The notes under the pieces are model-generated. The model ran no database searches. It saw only the letters and a list, made by a program, of their open reading frames with translations, and was not told where the DNA came from. Source: Coriobacteriia bacterium (lineage in GTDB: Bacteria; Actinomycetota; Coriobacteriia; Anaerosomatales; SLCP01). Taken from it: a stretch of 64,000 nucleotides of DNA. Positions 24,852 to 49,147 of the stretch are shown piece after piece. The position numbers were made by a program, and so were the translations under genes. The stretch spans positions 1 to 64,000 of the forward strand of contig SKMN01000020.1 in the NCBI GenBank assembly GCA_007121015.1, given 5' to 3'. The stretch's first letter is position 1, and the number at the start of each line of letters is the position of its first letter.

Positions 24852-26003
24852 CTACTTGTTGTGGCACTGCTGGCAGACACCACGGTTGTCGAGCCTCAAG
24901 AACGCGTTCTTGTTGCCCGGGTCCACGCCGCCGACGCCACTGTCGGGCTCGGGGTCGGTGGAGTCGAATACGTTCGCATAGCCTTCCATCACAGCGTCGG
25001 AACCGTGCGCACGGTGACAGGTCAGACAATCGATCCAGTCGGTTTCGCTACCGGTGGTCGAGAAGCTGTCCTGCGCGAGCGGCAGCACCTGGTCGGTGAT
25101 GATGAGCGAACGGGGGCCCTTGTAGTTCGCGAGCTCCACGTTCACCGGGTGACGGTAGCGCATGGTGTAGCCGAAACCGTCGTTGGCATCGTAGACGCTC
25201 GAGATAGCAAGGTCATCACGGTGGTACTGCGTGTGGCATGCCGCACACCAGGCGCTGATGCCGCGGGTCGGATCCTGAGCAGGAGCCTTCGCGTACATGG
25301 GCATGGTGTAGTTCGGCTCGTAGCCCGCCATCTGGGCAGCGCCAGGCTCGTGGAGGAGCCAGCCGTCCTCAGGATATCCGGGCTCGTTGGAGATCACGTA
25401 CGGATCCGGCACGAAATCGCCAGGCGTAGGCTCGGTGTAGCCACCGACAGTCACGCCGTTGACGATGTCCTTGAGCAGGCGGTAGTTCGAGCTACCGTGC
25501 ACGTCGTGGCACGAACCGCAGCTCATCGCGATCAAGCCGCCGTGACCAGTGGAGATGATGCCGTCGCGACCAGTGTCGCCGCCACCCCACGCGCCCCACG
25601 AGCTACCGTTGAAGGTGTGCTTGTTCTGCCCGACGACATGGTCGCCGAATGCACCGCTGTTGAGCATCATGCCCGTCGTGCCGTAATCAGTACCTTCGTA
25701 GATACCGTCGACGACGTTGGTGTCAGCACCTGCAGCCGCCTGACCGTGACACGTGAAGCAGAACTCGTAAAGCTCTGTCGCGGTCGACAGCAGCAGCGCG
25801 CTACGCTGCTCGCCGTCGTTGTTGGTCCACGTGATCGGGCTTGCCGCAGTATGTGCCCTGTGGCAGCCGGCGCACGCATCGGTATCCATGGAGTAGCCGC
25901 CATGAGGCCCGAAGTTCGCGAGCGCGATACCAGGGGTGAGGAGCAGCACAGACGCGACTACGGCGACTGCGAGCATGATTGAAAGCTTCCGCATACCGAT
26001 CAC
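24852..26003 (-). CDS. Hexaheme c-type cytochrome (CxxCH family) coupled to formate dehydrogenase
   Basis: 383 aa, signal peptide, 6 CxxCH: CAGCH, CFTCH, CGSCH, CAACH, CLTCH, CQQCH; start overlaps stop of the FDH beta gene. Confidence 0.92.
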   Translation of the reverse strand: MIGMRKLSIMLAVAVVASVLLLTPGIALANFGPHGGYSMDTDACAGCHRAHTAASPITWTNNDGEQRSALLLSTATELYEFCFTCHGQAAAGADTNVVDGIYEGTDYGTTGMMLNSGAFGDHVVGQNKHTFNGSSWGAWGGGDTGRDGIISTGHGGLIAMSCGSCHDVHGSSNYRLLKDIVNGVTVGGYTEPTPGDFVPDPYVISNEPGYPEDGWLLHEPGAAQMAGYEPNYTMPMYAKAPAQDPTRGISAWCAACHTQYHRDDLAISSVYDANDGFGYTMRYRHPVNVELANYKGPRSLIITDQVLPLAQDSFSTTGSETDWIDCLTCHRAHGSDAVMEGYANVFDSTDPEPDSGVGGVDPGNKNAFLRLDNRGVCQQCHNK

Positions 26004-26863
26004 CCCTCTCTCATTCCGACGGACTCTTCCATGTTCGCCTGACGGCGAGCGATCACCGCGAGCAGTCCGCCCGCAAGGAGCGTCGGCACGAGTGCCGCCT
26101 TGGCGAACGGGCCTGTGAGCAGATTCGACATCATCGGCGTCACGTGATCCTCGATGTAGGGATCCGCCTTGGGCTGGATGATGATCGCCCTTCTGCTCGC
26201 CCAGAACACACTACCATCACCCTGCGCGGAGATGAACTCGTTCGCAGGATCGTTGATGTAGGCATGCACGTTCTCGCGCGTGTCCCACTTCATGGCATTG
26301 GCCGGGCACGTGTACACGCAGCTCGGCTCGTGGTCCATCTCAGCGACGTGAGCAGAGTCCGGTAGGTTGTTGGAGTTCATCGGCAACGGGGTACCGTAGG
26401 TCGAATCGAGATCGGCGTCGGCTCCGGCGCGACCCCAGCACAGGGTGCACTTCCACGACTTGGCGGTGGGGAACTTGTCGCTTCCCTCTCCGATCTTCGG
26501 GTAACCGGAACGGTTACAGTCGAGCTGGCACTGATGGACACACGTGACGCCAGCCGCGTTCGTTCCTCCGGGATTGCAGAGGTTCGGGTCGATCGACACC
26601 GCACCGTTGCCCTCCTTGGCAAGCGCGTCGAAGGGACAGCGCTTCACGCAGGGCGGATCGGGGCAGTGCCAACAGCTGAACCTGATGAACGGACCGTTGT
26701 CCACGCGCTTCTGAGACTTGATGATGATCCGCACGTCCGGGGCCACCTTGTGCACACCCGGGTTCTCGGCCTTCATCATCCACGTACGCTTGCAGCTGAT
26801 GACGCACCCGTTGCACCTGACGCACCTGTCGACGTCCTGGAAAATCGCCATAAGGTTACTCAT
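26000..26863 (-). CDS. Formate dehydrogenase beta (4Fe-4S) subunit with C-terminal TM
   Basis: CVRCNGCVISCKRTW, CWHCPDPPCVKRCPFDAL, CTLCWGRAG, CVYTCPANAM clusters. Confidence 0.9.
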   Translation of the reverse strand: MSNLMAIFQDVDRCVRCNGCVISCKRTWMMKAENPGVHKVAPDVRIIIKSQKRVDNGPFIRFSCWHCPDPPCVKRCPFDALAKEGNGAVSIDPNLCNPGGTNAAGVTCVHQCQLDCNRSGYPKIGEGSDKFPTAKSWKCTLCWGRAGADADLDSTYGTPLPMNSNNLPDSAHVAEMDHEPSCVYTCPANAMKWDTRENVHAYINDPANEFISAQGDGSVFWASRRAIIIQPKADPYIEDHVTPMMSNLLTGPFAKAALVPTLLAGGLLAVIARRQANMEESVGMREG

Positions 26864-26877
26864 CGTTCACCACCTCC

Positions 26878-29800
26878 TTACATCTTCTCGATTCGGCAGA
26901 GACAGGCCTTGTACTCGGGGATCCGAGTGTTCGCATCGAACGAGTCGATGCACAGGTCGTTCGCACGCGAGCCAGTGGAGAGGCCCTTGTCACCCCAGTG
27001 CCATGGAATCGCTACGACGCCGACTCCGACGCGCTGGTTGGACTCGGTACCGACGCCCACGCGGGCGATGAAGCCCTGCGAGAAGCCGGAGTCCGTGTGA
27101 GGCGAGGCGGGATCCAAGAGATCTCCCTGATTAGCCGTGTCGGCACGTGCGGTGATCACGTTGATCATGTCGCCGGACTGGATGCCGAGTGCGTTCGCGT
27201 CGACCGAGTTGATCTCGATCCACGGGATCGGCTCACGCTCGACGTTCCACGCGTTGTTCCGCGTGATAGGTCCACCCTGGAAGTGCTCGACGCACCGGAT
27301 GGTGGTGAGCACGAGCGGGTAGTCCGACGGATCCTTGCGGTGGGTCGCAGGATAGTCCGCGTCGTTCGTTGCGACATAGCTGGGCTCGTAGGCTGCTCCG
27401 GTGGCAGCGGTACCCGTGTGGATCAAGTCCCACTTGGCAACGCCGCGAGTGTTGCGGCCAAAAATGGTCAGCATATCCGGGTTCTTGACCTCGAGCGGCG
27501 TCTCGTAGGGCTCCACGTGCGCAGGGAAGCGGCCGGGGAGTCCGACCGAGTGCACCGGGCTCGTGCCTGCGTTGTCCGGCATGTCTGAGAGACCGTGCAC
27601 CAGTCGCCAGTTGTTGTTGGCGTAGCTGATGGTACCGGGCTGCTGGCAGACGAAGAGGCGCGCGCACCTGTCGGGACCCTGATAGCCGTCGCCGACATCG
27701 CCAGGGACGTCGCCGTTGTTGTAGAGCACGCGACGGTTGACGAGCCACGAGTAGCCCCAGCCGGGATAGGCGTAGGTGCCGTTCGGGTCGGCCGTCGCAC
27801 GCTGCTTGGACCGGTTGGCACACAGCCACGGATCCTGACCGGTATGCAGGCGAGCCGTCTGTGTCAGGTCTGTGTTGTACGCATCGAGATACAGCCACAT
27901 CGTACCGCCGGCTGCAGGCACGGGACAGCACTGCTTGTAGATGTTCTCCGCGACGACCTCCGAGCCGTACACGGTATCCATCTCGGGTGCGTCCTTGTTC
28001 GCGTACCACATCTCCGTGACCGCGCTGACCTCCTCGAAGGCGGCAGCGTCAGCCGGGCTCCAGCCGTACTGGTCCCTGTAGAGCTTGTTGTAGACGACAC
28101 GCGCGTCGGTGACGTCCCAGCCCAGGCCGTCCCAGACGTCCTTGATGTGGCTGAATCCATCAGCGAGATCGACCGCGTACGCGAAGCGCAGCAGGAGTTC
28201 GAGATCGGACCTGCTGTTGCCCTTGGGCGGACACGCACGCTCGCGCCACTGCAGGACACGGCCGGAGTTCGCAACGCTGCCTGCTTCCTCGGCGTGCGAG
28301 CATGCCGGGAAGAGGTACGTGACGCCGCCCGCCTTGCGGTCGACCGCGGCGGTCTCCGTCTCGAACATGTCGGTAACCACGAGGACGTCGAGTTCCCTGA
28401 AACCGTCACGGATAGCCGACTGGTTGGGCTCGGTGACCGCAGGGTTCTGGCCCCAGACGACCATGCCGGTGATATCGCCTGTAGACGCTTTGCGGAACAT
28501 GGTGATGTGATCATCGCCGTTGTTCTTGGGCCACAGGCTGTAGATCGCGTCGACGACCGCACGCTTGGCGTCGTTGGCGTCCCGCTCGGCCTGGTTCGTG
28601 GCACGAGCGTAATACGTCATGTCGTTCACGGTGGCCCAGTCGCCGAACCAGTTGAGCGTCATGTTGTAGAAGCCGTCGGCCTGAAGTGCGAGTCCGCCCT
28701 TGATGCGATAGGCGTCGTCGTACGCCAAGGCATACGTGTCGGGCGCCTGGAAGTCCGCGAACCGAGTGGCCTGACCCCACAGCTTGTCGGTGTACTGACC
28801 GAAGGTGACTCCTTGTCCCGGGTTACCGGAGTAACCGGGGATGAGGTGCTGGAGCACGCCCATGTCGGTCGAGCCCTGCACGTTGTGGATACCGCGGAGA
28901 GCGTTGATGGCTCCGCCTGCACGACCGACGTTGCCGGTCAGGATCTGGAGGTTGGCGAAGGTCTTCACGTTCTGGGAACCGTGAGTGTGCTGCGTGAGGC
29001 CCATCGCGTACATCATCTGCGTAGCGCGATAGTTCTCGAAGTCCCGCGGGTCTTGGGACCCGACGACCGAGTCACCCGTGAGAGCCGAGCTCGTCATTCG
29101 GCTGTGGTCCACGAACGCCTGCGCGACGAACGCGATCTCCTCTTCCGTGACGCCACATATCTCGGCAGCCACATCGAGAGTATACGGCTCGATGTGCTCC
29201 TTGAACTTACTGAAAACGGTCCCCGGGTCCCTGAAGTCCGCCGCCTTCGCGGGCAGGTACTCGAAGTCGGTGGGATCGGTGCTCATATCGCGCTCGTAGT
29301 CCGTGCCACCAGCGTTCACGATGAAACGAGCATCGGTGTACCGGGAGCCCTGGATGCCTGCAGGCGTGGCGACTTCACCGTCGTTGCGGCGGAAGGCCTG
29401 GTCCTCCGTCTGGTTCATGAAGGCTACCCAGTTGTCCCTGACCGCCTGCGGCACGTTGCCCTCGACACCCTCGAAAAGACGGATGATCTGACGGGCGACC
29501 GCGTTGTTGAACGCGATGTCGGTGCCCGGACGGTGCCGGATGAACCGGCCGCCGTAGTTCTCCGCGAGCAGTGCGGTGCGCGACTTGCGAGGATCGATGA
29601 CGATCATGGTCGCAGCGGGACGCGTGTCGTGCGCCCGCATCACGTGCGCGGTCGCTGCAGGATGGTTCTCGACGAAGTTCGAACCCATGGCCACGAACAG
29701 CGTCGAGTTCGCCATGTCGGCCCAGTTGTTCGTCATAGCGCCTCGTCCGAATGCGGAGGCCAGACCGGCCACCGTGGACGAGTGTCAAATACGGGCCTGG

Positions 29801-30417
29801 TGCTCGATGTTGCTCGTACCGAAGTTCGCGATGACCTTACGGTACAGGTAGTTCTGATCGTTGTTCATGTGCGATGAGCCGAAGAACGCGACCGACTTGG
29901 AGTTGTTCTCCGTCGGAGCAAGAGATAGGTCGCCACGTGCGGTAAGCATCGCCGCGGCCGCCTCGTTCATCGCGGTCTGGAGATCCATCTTCGTCCACGC
30001 GCCGTTGCCGGTGCGCTTGTACCCTACACCGTTCGGGAACGCGGGATCGTAGTCGAACGTCGAATTCTCCGGATGGTTCGAGAATGCTCCGAGACGGCGA
30101 TCGTTGTTCACGAGCTGGAAGGTCCCGGCGCCCTTGGAGCACAGGCCGCCCGCGTTCCAGGGGGCCATGTGGTCGCCGTAGATATCCAACACGTTGCCAT
30201 CGGAGTCCACGTCGACGAGCTGACCACAGCTCGCCGAACAGTACGGACATGTGGTGTGGTAGGTCGCTTCAACCGTTGCGGCGTTGGCGGTCGACGGCTT
30301 GGCGGCGAAATCAATGCCCGCGGCGCCGACGGCAGCTGTGGCCGCTCCCGCTTTCAGGAAATCCCTACGCGAGAGTTGCAGCTTCCTCCCATCCATGTCC
30401 TTGTCAAGTTTACCCAT
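26878..30417 (-). CDS. Selenocysteine-containing formate dehydrogenase catalytic (alpha) subunit, Tat-exported
   Basis: RRDFLKAGAATAAVGAAG Tat motif; CPYCSASCG 4Fe-4S motif; [30 protein letters not shown]: in-frame UGA (29785-29787) at the FDH Sec position; reading frame continues 968 codons. Confidence 0.95.
29755..29787 (-). promoter_or_regulatory. SECIS element of the formate dehydrogenase gene
   Basis: UGA followed by 11-nt spacer, stem GGTGGCC/GGCCTCC with a T-T mismatch/bulge, apical loop GGTCT; same GGUCU loop as recalled for E. coli fdhF SECIS. Confidence 0.85.
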
Positions 30418-30556: not shown

Positions 30557-30605
30557 AAAAAACCGGCCAGCAGTAGGGCGCATGGGCGCCGAACCGATAA
30601 CCGGT
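30557..30605 (-). terminator. Candidate intrinsic terminator/expression platform inside the FDH leader
   Basis: Minus strand GACCGGTTATCGGTTCGGCGCCCATGCGCCCTACTGCTGGCCGGTTTTTT: ACCGG/CCGGT stem enclosing GGCGC-CCAT-GCGCC hairpin, followed by T6; lies 140 nt upstream of the FDH start. Confidence 0.45.
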
Positions 30606-30685
30606 CTTCATCTCATCTCTGCTCCCTTACCCCGCGTACCGATGCCGACGGACCCCTTTGCCGGAGGATCCGCCTCACTACATCA

Positions 30686-30772
30686 GTCCCCTTTCCAAAC
30701 GGGAGGCCCCGCAGTTTCCTGTGGAACCCTATCGGCCCAACCACCATGACCATCCCGGTTGTAGGTGTGTGG
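30686..30772 (-). ncRNA. Candidate Moco/Tuco-type riboswitch aptamer in the FDH leader
   Basis: Minus strand AACCGGGATGGTCATGGTGGTTGGGCCGATAGGGTTCCACAGGAAACTGCGGGGCCTCCCGTTTGGAAAGGGGAC aligns with the leader upstream of tupA. Confidence 0.6.
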
Positions 30773-30836
30773 GGCTCGGGAACGATGATCCTGTTGTCAT
30801 CCCGATCCACGGCGTTCGCCCTGGATACAGGGGGCG

Positions 30837-30854
30837 TTGTAACAATTGTTACAA
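30837..30854. promoter_or_regulatory. Perfect 18-bp palindrome, CRP/FNR- or Rex-like operator candidate
   Basis: TTGTAACAATTGTTACAA just upstream of the FDH leader RNA. Confidence 0.55.
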
Positions 30855-30957
30855 ACGCCATGTACATAGACTACCACACCGCTGCCACGTGTCAATACGT
30901 ACCCGTAACCGCCCACGCTCATCCGCGTCTACGTGCGGCTCCGCAGTGGAAGGTCGC

Positions 30958-38204: not shown

Positions 38205-38335
38205 CCCCTACTCCCTGCCACGCTGAGCGCGCGACGGGTATCGCACGCTCCGCTCGGACAAAACCCCGCCTCCCACCGCGAGACCACGCCGATGCGGCAG
38301 CACGGACGAAAGCCGGACGCCCGTGAGGGGAGTTC

Positions 38336-38349
38336 GTAACAACAGTTAC
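38336..38349. promoter_or_regulatory. GTAAC-N4-GTTAC inverted repeat upstream of the cytochrome b/multiheme operon
   Basis: GTAACAACAGTTAC; same half-sites as the 30837..30854 palindrome. Confidence 0.5.
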
Positions 38350-38402
38350 ATTTCACCATAGCACTCTGGCGAGGGCAAGCGTCGGGTGAAACCGCGGTCG
38401 GC

Positions 38403-38648: not shown

Positions 38649-39832
38649 GTCACGATCTCCGCGATCGCCGCGAGGGCGGTCTCGACGTGCTCGACGGTCA
38701 CGCCCCACCCTACGCCGAAGCGCACGGCTCCGCACTCGAGTGTCCCCACCGTCTCGTGGGCCCATGGCGCACAGTGGAGTCCACCGCGGACCGCGATGTC
38801 GTACCGGCGGTCGAGCTCAAACGCGATGCGGTCCGCATCGACCGTGTCGTGCACGGCGCTCACCACCGGCACGCGTGGCGCGCCGGGAGGTGGACCGAGG
38901 ACCCGGAAGCCATCGATCTCGAGCAGCCCTTCGTGGAGACGGCGTACGAGTTCGGCCTCCATCCTGCGGAAGGCGCCGCCCTCCGCGGCAAGGAGCTGGG
39001 CTGCCGCGCCGAGGCCGATGATGCCGGGCGTATTGAGCGTGCCCGCCTCGTAGCGGTCCGGACGCTCGGTGGGCATCGTGAGCGTCTCCGATGCACCCGC
39101 GCCCGTGCCGCCCTCTGCCTGTTCTTCGAGGTCGAGGCCGGACGCCACGTACAGGAGGCCGATGCCCTGTGGGCCAAGGAGCCCCTTATGGCCAGAGGTC
39201 GCGTACGCATCGGCACCGAGCGCAGCGAGGTCTACGTCGAGGTGTCCGGCGCCCTGCGCGCCATCGACGAGGAGGAGCGAACCGTACTCGTGGGCGATGT
39301 CGGCGAGGTCGCCGAGCGGCTGGATGGTACCCGTGAGGTTGGAGGCGTGCTGACAGATGACGGCCTTCGTGGGCGCGGCGCGCACCTCGCGTTCGACGTC
39401 GCCGGGATCGACGAGCCCCGCGGGGTCCGCCTGCACCACGACCACCTCGACTCCCGCCTCGGCGAGCCTGGCGAGCGGGCGAGCGACGGCATTGTGCTCC
39501 ATCGAGCCGACGACCACGCGGTCCCCAGGTCGCAGGCTCCCCTTGAGCATAAGGTTGCACGCATAGGTGCAGCTTGGCTGGAAGAGCAGGTCACACGAGT
39601 CGGGCACGCCGAGGAGCCCGGCGAGCGAGCGGCGTGCGTCGAAGATCGCGCGCGAGGCCGCGAGCGCCATCGCGTACGCGCCGCGACCCGGATTCCCGCC
39701 GAGTTCGGTGAGCGAGCGGGAGACCGCGTCGACGACCTGCGACGGTTTGGGCCACGATGTCGCGGCGTGATCGAGGTAGACGGCAGGCCGGGGATCGGAC
39801 GCGGTCTGCAAACCAGAGGCGGGCGATCTCAC
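38645..39832 (-). CDS. Cysteine desulfurase / selenocysteine-lyase-like family protein
   Basis: YLDHAATSWPKP, NPGRGAYAMALAASR, ATSGHKGLLGPQGIGLLYV (PLP-lysine), RGGLHCAPWAHETVGT. Confidence 0.9.
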   Translation of the reverse strand: MRSPASGLQTASDPRPAVYLDHAATSWPKPSQVVDAVSRSLTELGGNPGRGAYAMALAASRAIFDARRSLAGLLGVPDSCDLLFQPSCTYACNLMLKGSLRPGDRVVVGSMEHNAVARPLARLAEAGVEVVVVQADPAGLVDPGDVEREVRAAPTKAVICQHASNLTGTIQPLGDLADIAHEYGSLLLVDGAQGAGHLDVDLAALGADAYATSGHKGLLGPQGIGLLYVASGLDLEEQAEGGTGAGASETLTMPTERPDRYEAGTLNTPGIIGLGAAAQLLAAEGGAFRRMEAELVRRLHEGLLEIDGFRVLGPPPGAPRVPVVSAVHDTVDADRIAFELDRRYDIAVRGGLHCAPWAHETVGTLECGAVRFGVGWGVTVEHVETALAAIAEIVT

Positions 39833-40326
39833 GGGTGGCCTCCCCCCGCCATCATCTCGACGGCGTGCTCGAGCTGGTCGGCGACGAGGCCGAACGTCTC
39901 GCGTGCGGCCTTCTCGCTACCTGGCATGTTGATCACGAGTGTGCGCCCACGCAACCCCGCGCTCCCACGCGAGAGCATCGCGCGGCGCGTGATAGCCATG
40001 CTGCCTGCACGCATCGCCTCGGCGATGCCTGAAGCGAGGCGGTCGCACACGTCGTGCGTGGCCTCCGGCGTGACGTCCCGCGGGCTGAACCCGGTGCCTC
40101 CGCATGTGAGCACGACGTCGGCAGCGATGCGGTCAGCGAGTTCGACGAGGGCCGCACCGATCACCTCGCGGTCGTCGGGCACGATACGGTAGTCGGCGAT
40201 CTCCCACCCGCACTCCTCGGCAAGCGACGTGAGCGCCAGGCCCGCGGTGTCCTCGGCGTCCCCGGCGAAGCGAGAGTCCGAGCACGTCACGACCGCGATC
40301 CGAAGCATGCGCTCGAGGGCGGTCAT
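39829..40326 (-). CDS. MogA/MoaB-family molybdopterin adenylyltransferase
   Basis: RIAVVTCSDSRFAGDAEDTAGLAL..., DVVLTCGGTGFSPRDVTPEATHDVCDR. Confidence 0.93.
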   Translation of the reverse strand: MTALERMLRIAVVTCSDSRFAGDAEDTAGLALTSLAEECGWEIADYRIVPDDREVIGAALVELADRIAADVVLTCGGTGFSPRDVTPEATHDVCDRLASGIAEAMRAGSMAITRRAMLSRGSAGLRGRTLVINMPGSEKAARETFGLVADQLEHAVEMMAGGGHP

Positions 40327-40327
40327 G

Positions 40328-40873
40328 TCAGGCCCCGGATCCACGGCTGGCGGACTCGGGGTCGCTGGGACACTCCGCCTCGGGCACGCGGTCGCACGTC
40401 CCATCGCCGAGGGACACGACGGTCACCGCGTCGCCGACGACGACGTCGCCAGGCTCGCGCACGACGACGAAGATGCCCTCCTTGGGCATGACGCAATCGC
40501 CGGCCTGGTAATAGATGGCGCACTTCGTGTGGCACACCTTGCCGATCTGACTCACCTCGACCACCGCCGACTCGCCGATGGCGAGCACGGTGCCGATGGG
40601 CAGCGCGAGCAGGTCGATGCCGGTGGTCGTGATGTTCTCGGCGAAGTCGCCCGCACCCACATCGAGGCCCTTTTCGACCATCTTGTCGATCGACTCCTGC
40701 GCGAGCAGCGATACCTGCCGGTGCCAGTCGCCCGCATGCGCGTCGGTGTCGAAACCGCGGTCGTAGACGAGAGTGCCGCTCTCGCGGGGGGTCTTGCGGA
40801 CGGTCTTCTTCTCGGAGAGGTTCACCGAGGCGACCCGGCCGGGGCCGGGAAGAGCGGTCGCGTCGTTGCTCAT
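40328..40873 (-). CDS. MOSC-domain protein
   Basis: [47 protein letters not shown]. Confidence 0.9.
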
Positions 40874-41469
40874 AGCTCCTCCTCACGGATCCAGCGGCCG
40901 GACGCGCCGCCCGTCTTCTCGTGCAGCTTGACCTCACCGACGACCATGCCCCGGTCGATGGCCTTGCACATGTCGTAGAGCGTCAGCCCCGCCACGGCGG
41001 CGGCGGTGAGCGCCTCCATCTCCACGCCGGTCGGGCCGGTGGTCTCGCAGACCGCCGTGATACGCACGGTGGCTGCGGGGTGCACCGCGTCCGTGGCGTC
41101 GGCGAGGGCCGGTCCGCCGACCCCGGCCTCTAGAGGCTCGAGCTCCACGCTCGCGTGCGTGAGCGCGATGGGGTGGCACATCGGGACGAGGTCGGCGGTG
41201 CGCTTCGCGGCCATGATGCCGGCTATGCGCGCGGTCGCGAACACGTCGCCTTTGGGCGCGCGGCCCTCGACGATCATCGCGAGCGTCTCGGAACGCATCG
41301 TGACGAGCGCGCCGGCGATCGCGCGGCGGCGCGTGTCGGGCTTGGCGCCCACGTCGACCATGCGGGCCTCGCCGCGCTCGTCGAGGTGCGTCAGGCGGTC
41401 GTGGCGGCCGGTCGCGGCATCGTGCGACGGCGCGGCGGCGCCTGTGCCCGCGGGTTCCTCGGCAGTCAT
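40870..41469 (-). CDS. moaC: Cyclic pyranopterin monophosphate synthase MoaC
   Basis: [27 protein letters not shown]..., [28 protein letters not shown]. Confidence 0.96.
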
Positions 41470-41475
41470 GCGCGT

Positions 41476-42495
41476 CTAGCCTCCTATCTGGGACATGCCG
41501 CGCGTGGTGCCCACGCGCATGCTGTGGCTCTCGGGCTTCGATTCGAGCGCGCTGCGGATCGTGGCGCGCACGTCCTCGTCGGTGCCGCCGCGCAGTACCG
41601 AGCGCACGTCGATCTCCTCGTCGGAGAAGAGACACGCGCGCAGGCGTCCGTCGGCCGTCAGGCGCAGCCGATTACACTCGCCGCAGAAGTGGTGCGAGAG
41701 CGGGGTGATGACGCCGACGGTGCCGGGGGCGTCGCCGAAGCGGTAGTAGCGCGCCGGGCCCCATCCACCGGGCGCCTTGTCGCGCTGGACCGGGGTAAGC
41801 GCACCCAGGCCGGCGGCTGCGCCTTCGGCGGCGAGACGCTCGAGGATCTCGTCTGCCGTGACGTGGTCGGCGCGCGTCCAGCCCTCGGCGCCCGGCTCAC
41901 ACTCCCCCTCGGCGGTGCCTCCCACCGGCATGTACTCGATAAAGCGCACGTGCACGGGCCGGTCGAGCGTCAGTCGCGCGAAGCCGAGGAGGTCCTGCTC
42001 GAGGCTGCGTACGACGACCGCGTTGAGCTTGACTGGCCCCATGCCCGCAGCGAACGCCGCGTCGATCCCCGCGAGTGCGTCCTCGATGCGACCGCACCGC
42101 GTGATGCGTGCGAACACTTCGGGGTCGAGCGAGTCAAGCGAGACGTTGACGCGCGTGAGCCCGGCGTCCACGAGTTGCTCGGCGTAGCGAGCGAGCAGCG
42201 TGCCGTTGGTGGTGAGCGCGATGGCCTCGAGCCCGGTGAACGACTTGAGGCGTCGCACGTGGCCGATGATGCCCTTGCGCACGAGTGGCTCGCCACCGGT
42301 CAGCCGGATCTTCGAGATGCCCTCCTCGACGGCGATGGCCGCGAACCGCTCGATCTCTTCTAACGTGAGGATCTCGTCGTGCGGCTTCCACACCACGCCC
42401 TTCGCGGGCATGCAGTAGACGCACCGCAGGTTACACCGGTCGGTGAGCGAGATGCGAAGGTAGTCGATGCGGCGCCCGTACGTGTCGGTAGCCAT
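41476..42495 (-). CDS. moaA: GTP 3',8-cyclase MoaA
   Basis: RIDYLRISLTDRCNLRCVYCMPAKGV radical-SAM motif; C-terminal HHFCGECNRLRLTADGRLRACLFSDEEIDVR. Confidence 0.97.
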   Translation of the reverse strand: MATDTYGRRIDYLRISLTDRCNLRCVYCMPAKGVVWKPHDEILTLEEIERFAAIAVEEGISKIRLTGGEPLVRKGIIGHVRRLKSFTGLEAIALTTNGTLLARYAEQLVDAGLTRVNVSLDSLDPEVFARITRCGRIEDALAGIDAAFAAGMGPVKLNAVVVRSLEQDLLGFARLTLDRPVHVRFIEYMPVGGTAEGECEPGAEGWTRADHVTADEILERLAAEGAAAGLGALTPVQRDKAPGGWGPARYYRFGDAPGTVGVITPLSHHFCGECNRLRLTADGRLRACLFSDEEIDVRSVLRGGTDEDVRATIRSALESKPESHSMRVGTTRGMSQIGG

Positions 42496-42499
42496 GGCG

Positions 42500-42718
42500 C
42501 TAGAAGCAACCGAGGTCGCAGTTGTGGACGCGCACGCCGGCGAGATCGGCGGCGGCACCGGCGACCTTGTTCGGCACCCCGTGGTCCTCGGCGAGCTTGC
42601 GGAGCACCGGGCACGTGACTTTGCCGTCGACGGCCTTGGCCTCGACCGCGGCGGTCAGCTCGGGCGTGACCTGCCCGGCCCACTTCGGGTCGACCTGCTT
42701 GGGTGTGGAGCTGCTCAT
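42500..42718 (-). CDS. Small conserved-looking protein ending CDLGCF, in Moco operon
   Basis: 72 aa MSSSTPKQVDPKWAGQVTPELTAAVEAKAVDGKVTCPVLRKLAEDHGVPNKVAGAAADLAGVRVHNCDLGCF; tightly packed between moeA and moaA. Confidence 0.75.
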   Translation of the reverse strand: MSSSTPKQVDPKWAGQVTPELTAAVEAKAVDGKVTCPVLRKLAEDHGVPNKVAGAAADLAGVRVHNCDLGCF

Positions 42719-43968
42719 TCGATCCCTTCTTCCATGTCAAGCCTGACGACCTGTACGTCGCTGCCAGCGGCGAAGGACCCTTCGCCCTCGGGCAGCACGA
42801 GGAGGCAGTTGCCCCGGTGCGCCGCGGTGAGCAGCGCCGAGGACTGACTGCCGGAGAGCGCGACCTCGTAGACGCCATCGCCGGTGCGCGTTACGCGGGC
42901 GCGCAGGAAGTAGCGGCGGTCCTGCTTCTTCTTGACGTCGTGCGCCAGTCGGGCAGGGTGCCGCGGACGATCGAGAGCGGTATGACCCTGCATGTAACGC
43001 AGTGCGGGCCGCACGAAGATCTCGAAACCCACGTACGTCGAGGTGGGATTGCCCGGCAGGCCGAAGAAAGGCACGCCCTCGACCGAACCGAGCGTCTGCG
43101 GGTTGCCCGGACGCATCGCCACCTTGCAGAACTCGAGTTCGCCCATCTCCTCGAGCACGGGCTTGACGTAGTCGAAGTCGCCCACGCTCACACCGCCGCT
43201 CGTCACGATGAAGTCGCTCTCCGCAGCTGCTCGGGTGAACGCCTCGCGGGTCGCATCGAGGTCGTCCCCGACGATCGGATAGCGGAGTGGCACCCCGCCT
43301 GCGGCAATGACCTGCGCGGCGATCGAGTAACTGTTCGAGTTGCGGATCTTGCCAGGTCCGGGCAGCTCGGCGACCTCGACGAGCTCGTCGCCGGTCGAGA
43401 TCACCGCGACACGCGGGCGGCGGTGGACGGTGACGCTCGCATGACCGGTCGATGCGAGTAGCCCCACGCCCGCGGCCCCGATGACCTCGCCCTTCGCGAG
43501 CACCACGTCGCCGGCGACAACCTCCTCGCCGCGACGGCGGATGTGCTCGCCGAGCATCGGCTCGCGCATGATGCGCACAGTGCCACCTGCGCCGCCATCG
43601 GCCTCTCCGGCCTCGGTGAACTCGACCATCACGACGGAGTCCGCGCCCGGGGGCATCGCGGCGCCCGTCATGATGCGTGCCGCCTGACCGGGTGCGACCT
43701 CGAGTTCCGAGTGATCGCCGGCCCCGATATGCGAAACGACGTCGAGCGTGACCGGCGCGTCTGGCGAGGCGCCAGCAAGGTCGGCCGCGTGCAGCGCGTA
43801 CCCGTCCATCGCCGAGTTGTCGAACGGTGCGACGTCGATGTCGGAGACCGCGTCATGAGCGAGCACGCGCCCGAGCGACTCGAGCAGCGGCACCTCCTCG
43901 GTCTCGAGTACGCGGCAGCGAGCGAAGACCCTCTCGCGCGCCTCCTCGACGGACATGACGTTACTCAT
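42715..43968 (-). CDS. moeA: Molybdopterin molybdenumtransferase MoeA
   Basis: PFDNSAMDGYAL, IMTGAAMPPGADSVVMVE, SNSYSIAAQV, VTSGGVSVGDFDYVK, FGLPGNPTSTYVGFE. Confidence 0.96.
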   Translation of the reverse strand: MSNVMSVEEARERVFARCRVLETEEVPLLESLGRVLAHDAVSDIDVAPFDNSAMDGYALHAADLAGASPDAPVTLDVVSHIGAGDHSELEVAPGQAARIMTGAAMPPGADSVVMVEFTEAGEADGGAGGTVRIMREPMLGEHIRRRGEEVVAGDVVLAKGEVIGAAGVGLLASTGHASVTVHRRPRVAVISTGDELVEVAELPGPGKIRNSNSYSIAAQVIAAGGVPLRYPIVGDDLDATREAFTRAAAESDFIVTSGGVSVGDFDYVKPVLEEMGELEFCKVAMRPGNPQTLGSVEGVPFFGLPGNPTSTYVGFEIFVRPALRYMQGHTALDRPRHPARLAHDVKKKQDRRYFLRARVTRTGDGVYEVALSGSQSSALLTAAHRGNCLLVLPEGEGSFAAGSDVQVVRLDMEEGIE

Positions 43969-45407
43969 CGGCGGTCCTCCTCGTCCGGGATCGGTGACGC
44001 GATCACCCGCTCGGGGTGCGTGTACACGGTCATCTTTCCACCGCGGGCGTACCCCGCCATCGTGATGCCGAGCTCACCGGCGATCTCCGCGGCGAGGTCG
44101 GTGACTGCGGTCCGGGACACCACGACCGGCACGCGCGCCTTGGCGGCCTTCACCGCCATCTCGTACGAGACGCGTCCGGTGGTCACCAGTACCGCATCGC
44201 GAACGGGGATCCGGTCGATCCACGCTCGGCCGAGGAGCTTGTCGAGCGCGTTGTGGCGCCCGACGTCCTCACGCACGATCACGAGCTCGCCGTCACGCCC
44301 GAGCCCGCACGCGTGCATGCCTCCCGTCTCGCGGTACGCGCTCGCGGCACGCGCCAGTTGCCCCACGAGATCGTAGAGCTGGCTGCTTGCGACCCGCACG
44401 TCGCTCTCTATCCTCTCAAGTCCCTTGGCGTGTCCTACCGAGGAGAACGTCACGCCTTTACCGCACCCGCTCGTGACGTAGCGTGTCTTGTACACCATGT
44501 CGTCGGGGACTTCTTCAGCGGTCGTCACGTAGACGAGACCGCGCTTGTGGTCCACATCGGCCGAGCGGAACGCCTCGCGGTCGGCAAGCAGACCCTCGGC
44601 GACCATGAACCCGACCGCCATCTCCTCGAGGTCGTCGGGAGTGGCCTGCACGGTGGCGACCTCGACGTCGTTCATGTAGAGGGTGACGGGACGCTCCGAC
44701 GGCATCCCGCGCGGGCGGCGCGTGCCGACCTCGACCACCGACACGTGCACCCGATCGACGTCGGGACGCTCCTCGGGTGTCGCGAGAGCAGCGGGCGCGG
44801 CGCCTTCGCGCACCTCGGCGAGCTCCTCGGGGGTGTTGACGTTCACGAAACTCGCGAGATCGGGGTCGACATCGCGAAGTGAACCGAGAGGCACCTCGAC
44901 GACATCGACCTCCGAGAAGAGCGCGACTAGGCGGCGGCGGCCGGTCTCGAGCACCTTGCGTGCGGCGGGCAACACGCTCGTCGAGTACAGCGCGAGCAGC
45001 GGCTCGGGCCCTTTATCACCCACCGGCACGACGACCTGTGCCTGATCGCGCGCCTCCCACAGCGCGCGGACGACGGCGGGCGAGAGGTGCGGCATGTCCG
45101 CCGCGACGGCGAGCACCCACTCGTCAGGCGCCTCGGCGAGCGCGGTCACGAGACCGCCGAGCGGGCCCTGGTACGGCACCTCGTCGGTGACGACGCGCAC
45201 CGTCGCCGGCAGTCCGGCGTCCTCGAGTGCCTCGGGGCGATTGGTCACGACCATCGTATGGGCGCAGACCTCACCGACCGCCGAGACGACGCGGGCGACG
45301 AGCGTCTCACCGTCCACCGGCAGCAACGTCTTGTCGATGCCCATCCGCATCGAGCGCCCGCCCGCAAGCACTGCTGCGGTTATCGGCAGACCATCGGTCA
45401 TCCTCAT
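43965..45407 (-). CDS. MobA-FdhD fusion (molybdenum cofactor guanylyltransferase + formate dehydrogenase sulfurtransferase)
   Basis: MobA: AAVLAGGRSMRMGIDKTLLPVDG...PYQGPLGGLVTAL...AADMPHLSP; FdhD: MAVGFMVAEGLL...TSGCGKG...GGMHACGL...REDVGRHNALDKLLG...TTGRVSYEMAVKAA in one ORF. Confidence 0.92.
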   Translation of the reverse strand: MRMTDGLPITAAVLAGGRSMRMGIDKTLLPVDGETLVARVVSAVGEVCAHTMVVTNRPEALEDAGLPATVRVVTDEVPYQGPLGGLVTALAEAPDEWVLAVAADMPHLSPAVVRALWEARDQAQVVVPVGDKGPEPLLALYSTSVLPAARKVLETGRRRLVALFSEVDVVEVPLGSLRDVDPDLASFVNVNTPEELAEVREGAAPAALATPEERPDVDRVHVSVVEVGTRRPRGMPSERPVTLYMNDVEVATVQATPDDLEEMAVGFMVAEGLLADREAFRSADVDHKRGLVYVTTAEEVPDDMVYKTRYVTSGCGKGVTFSSVGHAKGLERIESDVRVASSQLYDLVGQLARAASAYRETGGMHACGLGRDGELVIVREDVGRHNALDKLLGRAWIDRIPVRDAVLVTTGRVSYEMAVKAAKARVPVVVSRTAVTDLAAEIAGELGITMAGYARGGKMTVYTHPERVIASPIPDEEDRR

Positions 45408-46534
45408 GCCTCCATCATCCCACTTCCGGCGACATCCGGCCTCACGCGGACCGCCGTCGCCTTGAAGACGACCTGTACGGAGGAGCCTTCCGCGATCTCC
45501 ATCTCGCGCACCGAGGAACGCGACACGTGCGAAGCGACCCGTGCCCCGCCGATGTCGAGCACGAGGTGGTACATCACGCCCCAGAGTCGCAGGGCGACGA
45601 CGGTGCCGTCGAAGCGGTTGCGCGCAGAGGAGCGCGGTATCTCGGTGCCGGCCTCGAAGAGCAGCACGTCTTCCGGACGTACCCCCGCGATCACGTGCGT
45701 TCCAGGCGCCAGTTCGCCGGTCGAGTAGACGACCGGGCCGCCCAGGTCCACCCCGAGCAAGCCCTCGGCCGATGTGGTCACGACACCGCGCAGAGGCGCC
45801 TCGGAGCCGAGGAAGGTCGCCGTCCACTCGTCGGGGGGCAGGCCCATGACGTCCTCGACGTGGCCGGAGGCGGCCGCGCGGCCGTCGCGCATCACGATCA
45901 TGCTGTCGGCCACCGCCATCGCCTCGTTCTGATCATGCGTGACGTAGACGGTGGTCATCTTGTCCTCGTGGATGATGCGCGCGAAGTCCTGCGACAGCCG
46001 ACTCTTGATGAGCGGGTCGAGCGAGGAAAGCGGCTCGTCGAGCAGAAGCACGCGCGGCTTGAGCACGAGCGCGCGAGCGAGCGCCACCCGCTGCGCCTCG
46101 CCGCCGGAAAGCGTGAGCGCCGAGCGGCCCTCCCACCCACCGAGGCCCACGCGCTCGAGCACCTCGGCCACCGCCGCGGAGCGCTTCGCGCGCGACACGC
46201 CTCTCAGCTTGAGTCCGTACGCCACGTTCTCGGCGATGGTGCCCTTGAACAGGTACGGGCTCTGGAACGCCGCGGCCATCTGCATGCGCGCACCGCGGTC
46301 CCGGGCACTCACCGGACGGCCGTCGAGGAATACCTGCCCGCTGTCGGGCTTCTCGAGCAGGCCGAGGATCGCGAGTAGCGTCGACTTACCCGCCCCCGAC
46401 GGGCCGAGGAGCGCGAGCGTCTCGCCTGGACTCAGCTCGACGTGGTCTATGTCGAGGACGACCCGCTTGCCGTAGCTCTTGCTGACGTTCTCGGCCCTCA
46501 ATGCGAGGCCTGCAGTGGAGGTGTAGGCCGTCAT
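45404..46534 (-). CDS. tupC: Tungstate/molybdate ABC transporter ATP-binding protein with TOBE-like tail
   Basis: Walker A LGPSGAGKSTLL, LSGGEAQRVALARAL, LLLDEPLSSLDP; adjacent to TupB/TupA-like genes. Confidence 0.88.
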   Translation of the reverse strand: MTAYTSTAGLALRAENVSKSYGKRVVLDIDHVELSPGETLALLGPSGAGKSTLLAILGLLEKPDSGQVFLDGRPVSARDRGARMQMAAAFQSPYLFKGTIAENVAYGLKLRGVSRAKRSAAVAEVLERVGLGGWEGRSALTLSGGEAQRVALARALVLKPRVLLLDEPLSSLDPLIKSRLSQDFARIIHEDKMTTVYVTHDQNEAMAVADSMIVMRDGRAAASGHVEDVMGLPPDEWTATFLGSEAPLRGVVTTSAEGLLGVDLGGPVVYSTGELAPGTHVIAGVRPEDVLLFEAGTEIPRSSARNRFDGTVVALRLWGVMYHLVLDIGGARVASHVSRSSVREMEIAEGSSVQVVFKATAVRVRPDVAGSGMMEA

Positions 46535-47247
46535 GCGTTCGCACCCCGCTCCCACCGCTCGCCGGCGTGCTGGTACCACGTGATGAGGCCGTTCAGGCCG
46601 AACGTGATCGTCATGAGGATGACGCCGAGAGCGAGCGCGAGTCCGAAGTCCCCGCGGCGCGCCTCCTGCACGATCGCCGTGGTGAGCACGCGGGTCTGGC
46701 CCTCGATGTTGCCGCCCACCATCAGCACGGCACCCACACCGCGCACGACCGCACCGAACCCGGCCGCCACGGCGGCGACGACTCCGAGGCGCGCTTCCTT
46801 GAGGGTCAGGAACGCCTCGTGTACGCGCGACGCGCCGAGCGAGCGCGCCTGTAGGCGAAGTTTGTACGGCACCGATGCGACCGCGGCGGACGTGAGGCCC
46901 GCGATGATCGGCGCCGCGATGAGCGTCTGGGCGATCGACATCGCGTCGACCGTGTAGAGCAAGCCGAGCGGCCCGAGCGGGCCCTGGCGGGAGAGGACCA
47001 TCATGACGACGAGGCCGATGACGACGGGGGGCACGGCCATGGCGGTGTTCGTGAGCGCGATGAGGACGCTCCTGCCGCGGAAGCGGGACGCGCCCATCAC
47101 GAACCCCATGGGCGCACCGAGGACGATCCCGAACGTGGTGGACACGAGGGCGACGTGGAACGTGACGCCGATGATGTTCCAGAGCTCCGGAGAGCCCTCG
47201 GCCATCAGCCTCACCGCCGTCACGATCGCCTCGATGAACACCGCCAC
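46531..47247 (-). CDS. tupB: Tungstate ABC transporter permease
   Basis: Polytopic permease, EAFLTLKEARLGVVAAVAAGFGAVVRGVGAVLMVGGNI. Confidence 0.88.
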   Translation of the reverse strand: MAVFIEAIVTAVRLMAEGSPELWNIIGVTFHVALVSTTFGIVLGAPMGFVMGASRFRGRSVLIALTNTAMAVPPVVIGLVVMMVLSRQGPLGPLGLLYTVDAMSIAQTLIAAPIIAGLTSAAVASVPYKLRLQARSLGASRVHEAFLTLKEARLGVVAAVAAGFGAVVRGVGAVLMVGGNIEGQTRVLTTAIVQEARRGDFGLALALGVILMTITFGLNGLITWYQHAGERWERGANA

Positions 47248-47264: not shown

Positions 47265-48146
47265 CTACTCGGCGTCAGGCACGAACAGCGGTTCGCCGTA
47301 GGCGTCCACACCAAAGGTCCGGATGATCTCCTGGGCCTCGGCTGAGACGATCCACGCCGCGAATGCTCGGGCGCCATCGAGGTTCGAGGCATCCGTCACG
47401 ACTATGACGCCGTAGGGGTTGAAGAGGCGCTCGTCGCCCTCGACGTGCACGGCGAGTTCGAGCCTCTCGCGCATGGCGAGGTACGTGCCACGGTCGGCGA
47501 GCGTGTACGCCTCGACCTCCGAGGCCATCGTCAACACGTCTCCCATCCCCTGCCCCACCGAGAGGTACCAGGGGCCGGACGCGCCGATTCCCGTCGCGTC
47601 CCAGATGCTCATCTCTTTCTTGTGCGTGCCCGAATCGTCACCGCGGGAGACGAACGCGTGCTCGCCGGCGGCGATGGTCGAGAAGGCTGCGGCAGCGTCG
47701 GTGCGGCCGGCGATCCCCGCCGGGTCGGCTGGGGGCCCGACAAGCACGAAGTCGTTGTACATGACGTCGAGACGCTCCTCGCCGTAGCCCTCGGCGACGA
47801 ACGTCTCCTCGTCGGCCTTGGCATGCACGAGCACGACGTCGGCGTCCTTGTTGCGACCGATCTCGAGCGCCTGACCCGTGCCGACCGCGACCACGCTCAC
47901 GCGATACTGCGGGTGTGCGTCCTCGAACGCCGGGACGAGCGCACCGAACAGGCCTGAGTCCTCCGTCGACGTGGTCGAGGCTATGACGACGTTGGTGACC
48001 TCGACCGGTTCGGGAGCCGCGGCGTCGTCAGGCGTGGGTCGCGGCTCGCCGTCGGCGCACGCGACAAGCAGCAGCGCGACGACACTGACCAGAAGAACGG
48101 GGACGGCCCGCCGGAAGACGGCGGACCCAAAGCGATACTCGAGCAT
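47265..48146 (-). CDS. tupA: Tungstate ABC transporter substrate-binding lipoprotein
   Basis: Lipobox LLLVAC; VIASTTSTEDSGLFGALVPAFE..., DVVLVHAKADEETFVAEGYGEERLDVMYNDFVLVGP typical of TupA. Confidence 0.9.
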   Translation of the reverse strand: MLEYRFGSAVFRRAVPVLLVSVVALLLVACADGEPRPTPDDAAAPEPVEVTNVVIASTTSTEDSGLFGALVPAFEDAHPQYRVSVVAVGTGQALEIGRNKDADVVLVHAKADEETFVAEGYGEERLDVMYNDFVLVGPPADPAGIAGRTDAAAAFSTIAAGEHAFVSRGDDSGTHKKEMSIWDATGIGASGPWYLSVGQGMGDVLTMASEVEAYTLADRGTYLAMRERLELAVHVEGDERLFNPYGVIVVTDASNLDGARAFAAWIVSAEAQEIIRTFGVDAYGEPLFVPDAE

Positions 48147-48148
48147 AG

Positions 48149-48239
48149 TGCGTCTCCTTTCCACCGGGAGGCGAGGAGGTTTCCCGTCCTCACCCTATCG
48201 GTCCGGCATCCGTGGCCCGCTCGGTTGGGCTGTAGGACG
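48149..48239 (-). ncRNA. Candidate Moco/Tuco-type riboswitch in the tupABC-cofactor operon leader
   Basis: Minus strand CCAACCGAGCGGGCCACGGATGCCGGACCGATAGGGTGAGGACGGGAAACCTCCTCGCCTCCCGGTGGAAAGGAGACGC; aligns with the FDH leader (30686..30772). Confidence 0.6.
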
Positions 48240-48327
48240 TCCGGACTCGGAGATATATGGGGCCGCCTCATCTGCAGCCGTATGCAAGACCATACCGTAC
48301 AGCGGGCGTCTCGCTCAAGCCCGCCGC

Positions 48328-49074
48328 CTACCGTGCGGCCGCGGTGACCGGCCACGAACGTGCCGGCTCTCCCACGGTGATACTCATCGGTGTCTGCCCC
48401 CTCGCCGCGCAGGTGTGTGCGAGCGTCTTCATGTCGCACGGCATCCTGAGGTGGCGGACGGACATCCCATCGGGCACCGCAAGCCTGACCTTGGGCGTGA
48501 GCACGAACGCTCCGGTGATGCCCGCTTCGAGCAGAAGTTCGAGCACAGGTTCGAGCCACGTCTTGGAGCACGCGACGAGGGCGATCTGCGCGTCCAGGTC
48601 AGGGTCGAGGTTCGGCAGTTCGGTCACGTGGGCCACCTGACGCTCGCCAACGACGATACCCACTTCTTCGGGGAGCTCGGAGAAGTAAGCGACCGAACTC
48701 ACGCCATACGAATCCGCCGGGATGAGCATCTCGAGTGCTTGAAGCATGGTGGCCGTACCGATGCGTACCACCGGGTAGTCCTCACGCAAGCCGAGGCACT
48801 CCTGGATCGCGGAGTGAAGCCCGTAGAGCCGGTACCCGATGCCGCGCCTGCCGTTCCCGGCCACGTATGACAGGTCCCTGCGTACGGTCGTTTCTCGGAT
48901 ACCGAGATCCCCCGCGATGTCCGACGACGTCAGCAGGCGGTCCTCCTCGCCAGAACGGATCGTCTCGCCGAGGTGGCAATCGTAGAGTGCAAGCCGGTAG
49001 AGGGTCGCCTCCGGAGGTCTGATGTACGGTGCCATGGGTATCCCGCCCCCCATCGTGATGAACTGTTTCACCAT
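48328..49074 (-). CDS. Rex-like winged-helix redox regulator with divergent C-terminal domain
   Basis: EATLYRLALYDCHLGE...LLTSSDIAGDLGIRETTVRRDLSYVAGNGRRGIGYRLYGLHSAIQECLG resembles Rex N-terminus. Confidence 0.65.
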   Translation of the reverse strand: MVKQFITMGGGIPMAPYIRPPEATLYRLALYDCHLGETIRSGEEDRLLTSSDIAGDLGIRETTVRRDLSYVAGNGRRGIGYRLYGLHSAIQECLGLREDYPVVRIGTATMLQALEMLIPADSYGVSSVAYFSELPEEVGIVVGERQVAHVTELPNLDPDLDAQIALVACSKTWLEPVLELLLEAGITGAFVLTPKVRLAVPDGMSVRHLRMPCDMKTLAHTCAARGQTPMSITVGEPARSWPVTAAAR

Positions 49075-49147
49075 CACGATGGCGCCGCGGAAGCTCCGTG
49101 CGCGACGGGGATACCCCGCGGGTGTCCGTGGGGGAATCCCCCGCCCA

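Follow-up and report, generated by a model that had tools for sequence, protein, structure and literature searches.

The window analysed here, a stretch of 64,000 nucleotides, comes from the genome of an uncultured Coriobacteriia bacterium (1.94 Mb, 98% complete) and contains a tungsten/FDH gene cluster in which two operons are each preceded by a copy of the same leader RNA. These two leaders, the fdh copy and the tup copy, lie on the same strand, 17.5 kb apart within the one cluster, and the description of their operons as unlinked in the first-pass annotation does not hold. The genes concerned are the following.

26000..26863, minus strand: fdhB-like iron-sulphur subunit (family search)
26878..30417, minus strand: fdhA, formate dehydrogenase alpha with selenocysteine, UGA codon 211 at 29787..29785
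39829..43968, minus strand: moeA, moaA, moaC, MOSC and mogA-like genes, in an operon shared with tupA
43965..47247, minus strand: tupB, tupC and a MobA-FdhD fusion, in an operon shared with tupA
47265..48146, minus strand: tupA, tungstate-binding protein, start ATG 48146..48144

The UGA at codon 211 bears out the earlier prediction of a selenocysteine formate dehydrogenase. TupA was assigned by a match to NF041772 (2.3e-55) that falls below the strict cut-off of this model; MoeA, MoaA, MOSC and the MogA-like protein were named by family search, and moaC from its sequence and gene order. MobA and FdhD form a single fused protein (window 43968-45404), an arrangement kept in tup operons across the order. 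Family searches of the whole genome found one tungstate transporter (TupABC) and no ModA; the sole PF00384 molybdopterin oxidoreductase is the selenocysteine FDH, whose nearest named relatives belong to uncultured Coriobacteriia genomes, and there is one aldehyde ferredoxin oxidoreductase (AOR). We infer that the window's FDH contains tungsten. A Rex-like protein adjoins the tup operon (window 48331-49140); its NAD-binding glycine motif appears degenerate, and judging from its sequence it is possibly a second, non-NADH-sensing paralogue.

The repeated leader is a member of the RF01055 Moco/Tuco riboswitch aptamer class. In a covariance-model scan both copies scored above the RF01055 gathering score of 36; the fdh copy matched the family over its full length and obtained 101 bits with our own model, R1. 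The elements of the two leaders are listed below.

30557..30606, minus strand: intrinsic-terminator-like hairpin followed by U6, -26.8 kcal/mol
30621..30633, minus strand: second copy of the P1 3' strand (decoy or anti-aptamer), GGGGUAAGGGAGC, covarying with the P1 5' strand
30638..30687, minus strand: stem A hairpin, ACUGAUG..CAUCGGU, from folds and partner tests
30672..30793, minus strand: RF01055 Moco/Tuco aptamer, fdh copy (P1, P2, P4 and P5; no P3), 67.3 bits, E 4.9e-14
30686..30696, minus strand: canonical aptamer 3' strand, GGAAAGGGGAC (P5 3' side and P1 3' strand)
30778..30783, minus strand: P1 5' strand GUUCCC, able to pair with either of two 3' strands
30837..30854, no strand assigned: palindrome TTGTAACAATTGTTACAA, probable Rex operator, between promoter and aptamer
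30868..30895, minus strand: predicted promoter TTGACA-N16-TAGTCT, upstream of the fdh aptamer
48138..48264, minus strand: RF01055 aptamer, tup copy (no P3), 57.7 bits
48160..48154, minus strand: Shine-Dalgarno AAAGGAG inside the 3' strand of the tup copy, with the ATG at 48146

The core motifs of the class account for the conserved blocks of the leader: CCUCCCG forms P4/P5, GGAAAGG forms P5 and the P1 3' strand, GGAAAC, which is invariant in the aptamer alignment, supplies the GAAA tetraloop of P4, and CCGAUAGGG is the P2/P4 junction without P3. The first-pass annotation was right that the leader is present twice and that the copies are homologous. The interval it gave, 30686..30772, covers most of the first aptamer, although it was read on the plus strand and the element lies on the minus strand. 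It had also attached weight to an exactly conserved 20-nt spacing between CCGATAGGGT and AACCG; this is a coincidence, as the lengths vary among relatives, and in the RF01055 alignment AACCG falls in a stem in the first copy and in a loop in the second. The membership of a known Rfam class, the presence of two platforms, the repressor operator and the second P1 3' strand of the fdh leader go beyond what had been noted.

The similarity extends well past these two sites, as RF01055 is present in 68 of 400 genomes of the class, nearly all of them in the same order. Nearly all the class matches were taken with their surroundings, a covariance model was built and 128 aptamers were recovered. Structural covariation was strong over 65 aptamers, with double changes at 21 of the 27 pairs; double-changed cells numbered 266, and shuffles gave 78.5 (0/500 as many). 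Paired cells reached 93.7% over P1, P2, P4 and P5, a count that is biased towards the model to which the alignment was fitted. Several other loci were recorded in this survey. At least two Moco-type aptamers stand in series before one operon at L079, L117, L113 and L155. High-scoring P3-less aptamers at L081, L066 and L059 are followed by an hrcA-dnaJ-like operon, a racemase-like gene and no clear gene, respectively, and these aptamers are possibly misplaced, orphan or directed at new targets. At six loci (L146, L127, L090, L092, L111 and L110) a P3-less aptamer precedes a ferredoxin-like gene and a large oxidoreductase; of these oxidoreductases, family search confirmed only those of L146 and L110 as aldehyde ferredoxin oxidoreductases.

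Within its own genome the aptamer occurs exactly twice, and both copies precede pterin-cofactor genes and carry an expression platform. This agrees with the earlier proposal that one RNA regulator is common to the FDH and the tungstate/cofactor operons. It had further been suggested that the regulon is of the tungsten type, and the P3-less aptamer in a genome with TupABC and without ModA fits this well. Regulski et al. (2008) found that P3-less Moco RNAs accompany tungsten-using bacteria and assigned this subtype to Tuco (PMC2408646); in the available part of that report no direct ligand binding is demonstrated for the class, and open-access full text yielded no experiments pursuing the Tuco subtype, the other papers found there mentioning it once each. 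In both window copies the P2-P4 junction consists of CGAUAG only, at the place of P3, and the genome has TupABC and an AOR and lacks ModA, the features by which the subtype was recognised. Judged by these features, the window aptamers are probably the tungsten (Tuco) version.

The same trend is seen in the class at large. P3 is absent in about 124 of the 128 aptamers, present as a hairpin in three and unclear in one. All three hairpins belong to a single genome, G023, which has ModA and lacks TupA; they stand before modABC-moa and other genes (L063, L064 and L065), one of them directly before modABC-moa, and a fourth RF01055 match in G023 was missed by our own model. G088, a relative of G023 in the same family, has TupA and P3-less aptamers. 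Among the 68 riboswitch genomes, TupA is found in 59 and ModA in 11. The association between P3 and the metal is not an absolute rule, since ten genomes with P3-less aptamers have ModA and one such aptamer (L061) precedes a ModA gene. These exceptions could also be taken to mean that the aptamer senses Moco, or both cofactors indiscriminately, and that the loss of P3 is a trait of the lineage rather than a switch of ligand. Indeed, P3 loss is nearly fixed in the order, and the association with TupA could therefore reflect shared ancestry. We consider this reading unlikely, given that the window's genome has no ModA and places its tungstate transporter under the same aptamer, and that P3 goes with ModA and without TupA in G023, the one genome that has it, while G088 from the same family combines TupA with P3-less aptamers. 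Until now the ligand identity of the P3-less RNAs has rested on the 2008 correlation over 19 organisms; the correlation between P3 and tungsten is here repeated with 128 aptamers in 68 genomes, and the repeat adds a family whose relatives differ in both P3 and TupA, and a genome without ModA.

The genes downstream of the aptamers fall into two main groups, with 58 aptamers before tupABC-mobA/fdhD-moeA and 42 before fdhAB, and the expression platforms separate cleanly by gene, both being repeated across the order. The start codon of the tup group falls at or within the end of the aptamer match, and the P1 3' strand itself is the Shine-Dalgarno sequence. The bound aptamer would hide this sequence inside P1, and cofactor would therefore shut down both the uptake of tungstate and the synthesis of the pterin. 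In the fdh group the start codon comes about 205-280 nt later, and the leader follows the order promoter, Rex-type operator, aptamer, stem A hairpin, second P1 3' strand GGGGUAAGGGAG and hairpin-plus-U terminator. The tup copy of the window has neither the second strand nor the terminator nor the operator.

At the upstream end of the fdh leaders, a promoter-like TTGAC(A)-N-TAnnnT sits about 100 nt before the aptamer, and a match is found at most 150 nt upstream of it in 40 of the 42 leaders (0.22 in shuffled sequences). In the window, transcription is predicted from the promoter sequence to start near 30860, upstream of the aptamer and not downstream of 30686, where a start would have told against the first-pass annotation. 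At 47-79 nt before the aptamer, 32 of the 42 fdh leaders have the palindrome TTGTAACNNNNGTTACAA (0.005 when shuffled), compared with 2 of the 58 tup leaders. In the window's genome, nine sites match the palindrome with up to two mismatches, compared with one for the reversed pattern; it is also found at the bona fide rex gene, before two nuo operons, and at 38334..38351, 130 nt before the window's cytochrome b/multihaem operon. By its sequence and location the palindrome is probably the Rex operator of this lineage, and Rex, which senses NADH/NAD+, probably gates the same fdh promoter. The sites at 30837-30854 and 38334-38351 of the window, together with L005, L006 and L166, outline a probable Rex regulon that includes the FDH-linked cytochrome operon.

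Between the aptamer and the terminator, the fdh leader alignment conserves a hairpin after P1 with a CCGGCA loop, followed by GGGGUAAGGGAG(G)C. RNAalifold on plain MAFFT alignments of the leaders returned mostly the terminator and a doubtful helix, and for this reason matched partners were compared with permuted ones; as such permutations keep composition and not relatedness, the tests were repeated with one leader per genus and one per family. The hairpin, stem A, has an upper stem GGCGGAUCC/GGGGUCCGUC and a loop containing CCGGCA; its matched arms pair better than permuted arms (z -12, 0/2000; with one leader per genus, z 9.5, 0/2000), and in most leaders examined it contests two to five of the outer pairs at the base of P1. 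The motif that follows nearly repeats the 3' strand of the aptamer itself (GGAAAGGAGAC). It too has the P1 5' strand as its pairing partner, and it tracks the changes of that strand: GUUCCC/GGGAGC in the window's family, GCCUCC/GGAGGC elsewhere, and AUCUCC/GGGAGAU in L073. This covariation was significant in the full set (z 4.1, 0/5000 permutations as good), with one leader for each of 26 genera (z 4.7) and with one for each of 13 families (median fraction of permutations as good, 0.007). All six pairs of the helix can form in 21 of the 26 genera and four or five of the six in the other five, and a complement of the P1 5' strand at +25..+100 is present in 32 of 42 fdh leaders against 3 of 44 tup leaders. 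In four leaders outside the fdh group (L059, L079, L094 and L118), a P1 complement stands about equally far along in a different sequence context. When leaders were folded up to the decoy strand, the structure with the alternative P1 and the complete stem A beat the aptamer fold by a median of 7.1 kcal/mol without ligand (range -17.9 to +4.2), energies that leave out tertiary contacts and the ligand. The module after the aptamer has the anatomy of an anti-aptamer, and ligand would therefore be needed to hold the canonical strand.

Other pairings considered for this region fared less well. A pairing of the decoy GGGGU to P2 and a third strand copy (AAGGAGG, about 75-110 nt before fdhA) were both rejected, as they showed no covariation, and an extension of P1 through the 5' flank was weak (z -1.9). 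A conserved AAGGAGGUG-like stretch is present at that same distance before fdhA, with no ORF behind it.

The conserved element of stem A, GGGGUAAGGGAG, a small hairpin and the terminator might instead be a regulator in its own right, for example an RNA that binds a protein or a second ligand. GGGGUAA is kept beyond the needs of the P1 pairing, its pairing on the P2 side does not covary, no pairing connects the element to the terminator, and a search of the post-aptamer leader against Rfam at a lax threshold gave one chance match only and no family. This possibility nevertheless seems to us rather unlikely, since across families the strand changes along with the P1 5' strand, as expected of an alternative P1, and since the four non-fdh leaders mentioned above have a P1 complement about equally far along in otherwise different sequence. 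In a very improbable reading, GGGGUAAGGGAG recruits ribosomes to a leader ORF overlapping the terminator, and translation of this ORF would then bring about attenuation. The motif contains the Shine-Dalgarno-like AAGGGAGG, inspection by eye shows an ATG no more than about 20 nt downstream in roughly half of the leaders, and in some leaders there is a start-stop, AUG AGA UGA in that of the window. However, many leaders have no start codon at all, no frame is conserved before or after the motif, and the frame ended by UAA has no consistent start; on these grounds we rejected a leader ORF, whether it closed at the conserved UAA or opened after the Shine-Dalgarno-like motif. Start-stop ORFs (AUG AGA UGA, AUG UGA, AUG UAG) are seen between decoy and terminator in several genera, at 30606-30640 in the window, and are not conserved overall.

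The terminator itself had been anticipated as a hairpin plus T6 (30606..30557), and it is confirmed as terminator-like. In a first scan, a strong hairpin with a U tract was found in 31 of 42 fdh leaders and in none of 58 tup leaders; a wider hairpin search placed it in 37 of 38 typical fdh leaders, starting 49-76 nt after the aptamer, and its arms covary (z -12.9). A generic terminator scanner reported none on the window. A SECIS-like reading of this hairpin was discarded because its apical loop lacks GGUCU, which is present in the hairpin after the UGA codon. With regard to the link between aptamer and terminator, the computed terminator probability at equilibrium was the same in both states (0.90 vs 0.89), no upstream segment covarying with the 5' arm of the terminator was found in the fdh leaders, and candidate antiterminators from the aptamer, stem A or the decoy matched no better than permuted ones (z -1.0 to +1.5). 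The leader in the window does have a CCGAUA/UAUCGG complement. The sequence thus yields an aptamer switch and a terminator at a fixed place with no connecting pairing found, and kinetic folding, pausing or a protein factor may provide the link.

Taken together, the best explanation of the fdh leader, to which we give a probability of about 0.7, is a P3-less riboswitch of the Moco family that senses Tuco and controls the operon of the tungsten/selenocysteine formate dehydrogenase. In the mechanism proposed, the P1 5' strand would choose between two 3' strands. With cofactor bound it would pair with the canonical strand and the aptamer would stand; without cofactor the duplicate strand would capture it, the canonical strand would fold into stem A, and the aptamer would be dismantled before the polymerase leaves the terminator region.

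As for the direction of control, we lean towards the fdh leader being ON with cofactor, which appears somewhat likelier than OFF, because it would make little sense to repress the sole tungsten oxidoreductase of its type when its cofactor is plentiful. We state this as a leaning since the terminator is equal in both states and nothing upstream covaries with its 5' arm. The same riboswitch could exert ordinary feedback, with cofactor promoting termination as in other coenzyme riboswitches: the Moco RNA of E. coli is known as an OFF switch (PMC2408646), some Moco RNAs are followed by terminators (PMC2408646), and termination in the moaA Moco leader of E. coli has been reported from RNA-seq (PMC12121620). 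We regard this sign as doubtful, though of some weight, because the regulated gene uses the cofactor and does not make it, because the simpler tup design could have served for an OFF switch, and because the separate platform with the duplicate P1 strand, very rare in tup leaders, is maintained in those of fdh and in a few others. With an ON sign at fdh, the two copies would act in opposite senses in one cell, tup-moa being turned off by occlusion of the Shine-Dalgarno and the tungsten/selenocysteine FDH being turned on through the duplicated P1 strand under a Rex gate; we propose this combination tentatively, at rather less than even odds. If the copies for supply and demand do have opposite signs, their leaders, 17 kb apart, offer a paired in vivo test of both ligand and direction. 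The duplicate P1 strand is a concrete mechanism open to mutation, and the fdh-type platform, conserved through the order, makes the questions of ligand and direction testable.

The aptamer adds a member to a class already known, and to our knowledge of the open-access literature the fdh platform has not been described before; we found no description of the decoy strand in open-access full text. With the RF01055 class (PMC2408646) the window shares the sequence and structure of the aptamer, the GAAA tetraloop, a Shine-Dalgarno in P1 (tup copy), a terminator after the aptamer (fdh copy) and the absence of P3 in tungsten users. The available part of that report gives platforms in general terms, without stem A, a duplicate P1 3' strand or a Rex-type operator. 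In the moaABCDE leader of E. coli, P1 hides the Shine-Dalgarno, like in the tup copy (PMC2408646), and upstream protein factors give dual control, as in the fdh leader, these being FNR and ModE in E. coli and probably Rex here; unlike the window's leaders, it has P3 and responds to Moco but not to Tuco. With respect to Rex, the operator in Staphylococcus aureus is TTGTGAAW4TTCACAA (PMC2883068), and our sites share its palindrome geometry and, as in the known Rex regulon, their location at rex itself and at nuo operons. They differ at two positions per half-site (TTGTAAC vs TTGTGAA), and what sets the window apart from the known Rex regulon is fdh as a target, with the operator stacked on a riboswitch.
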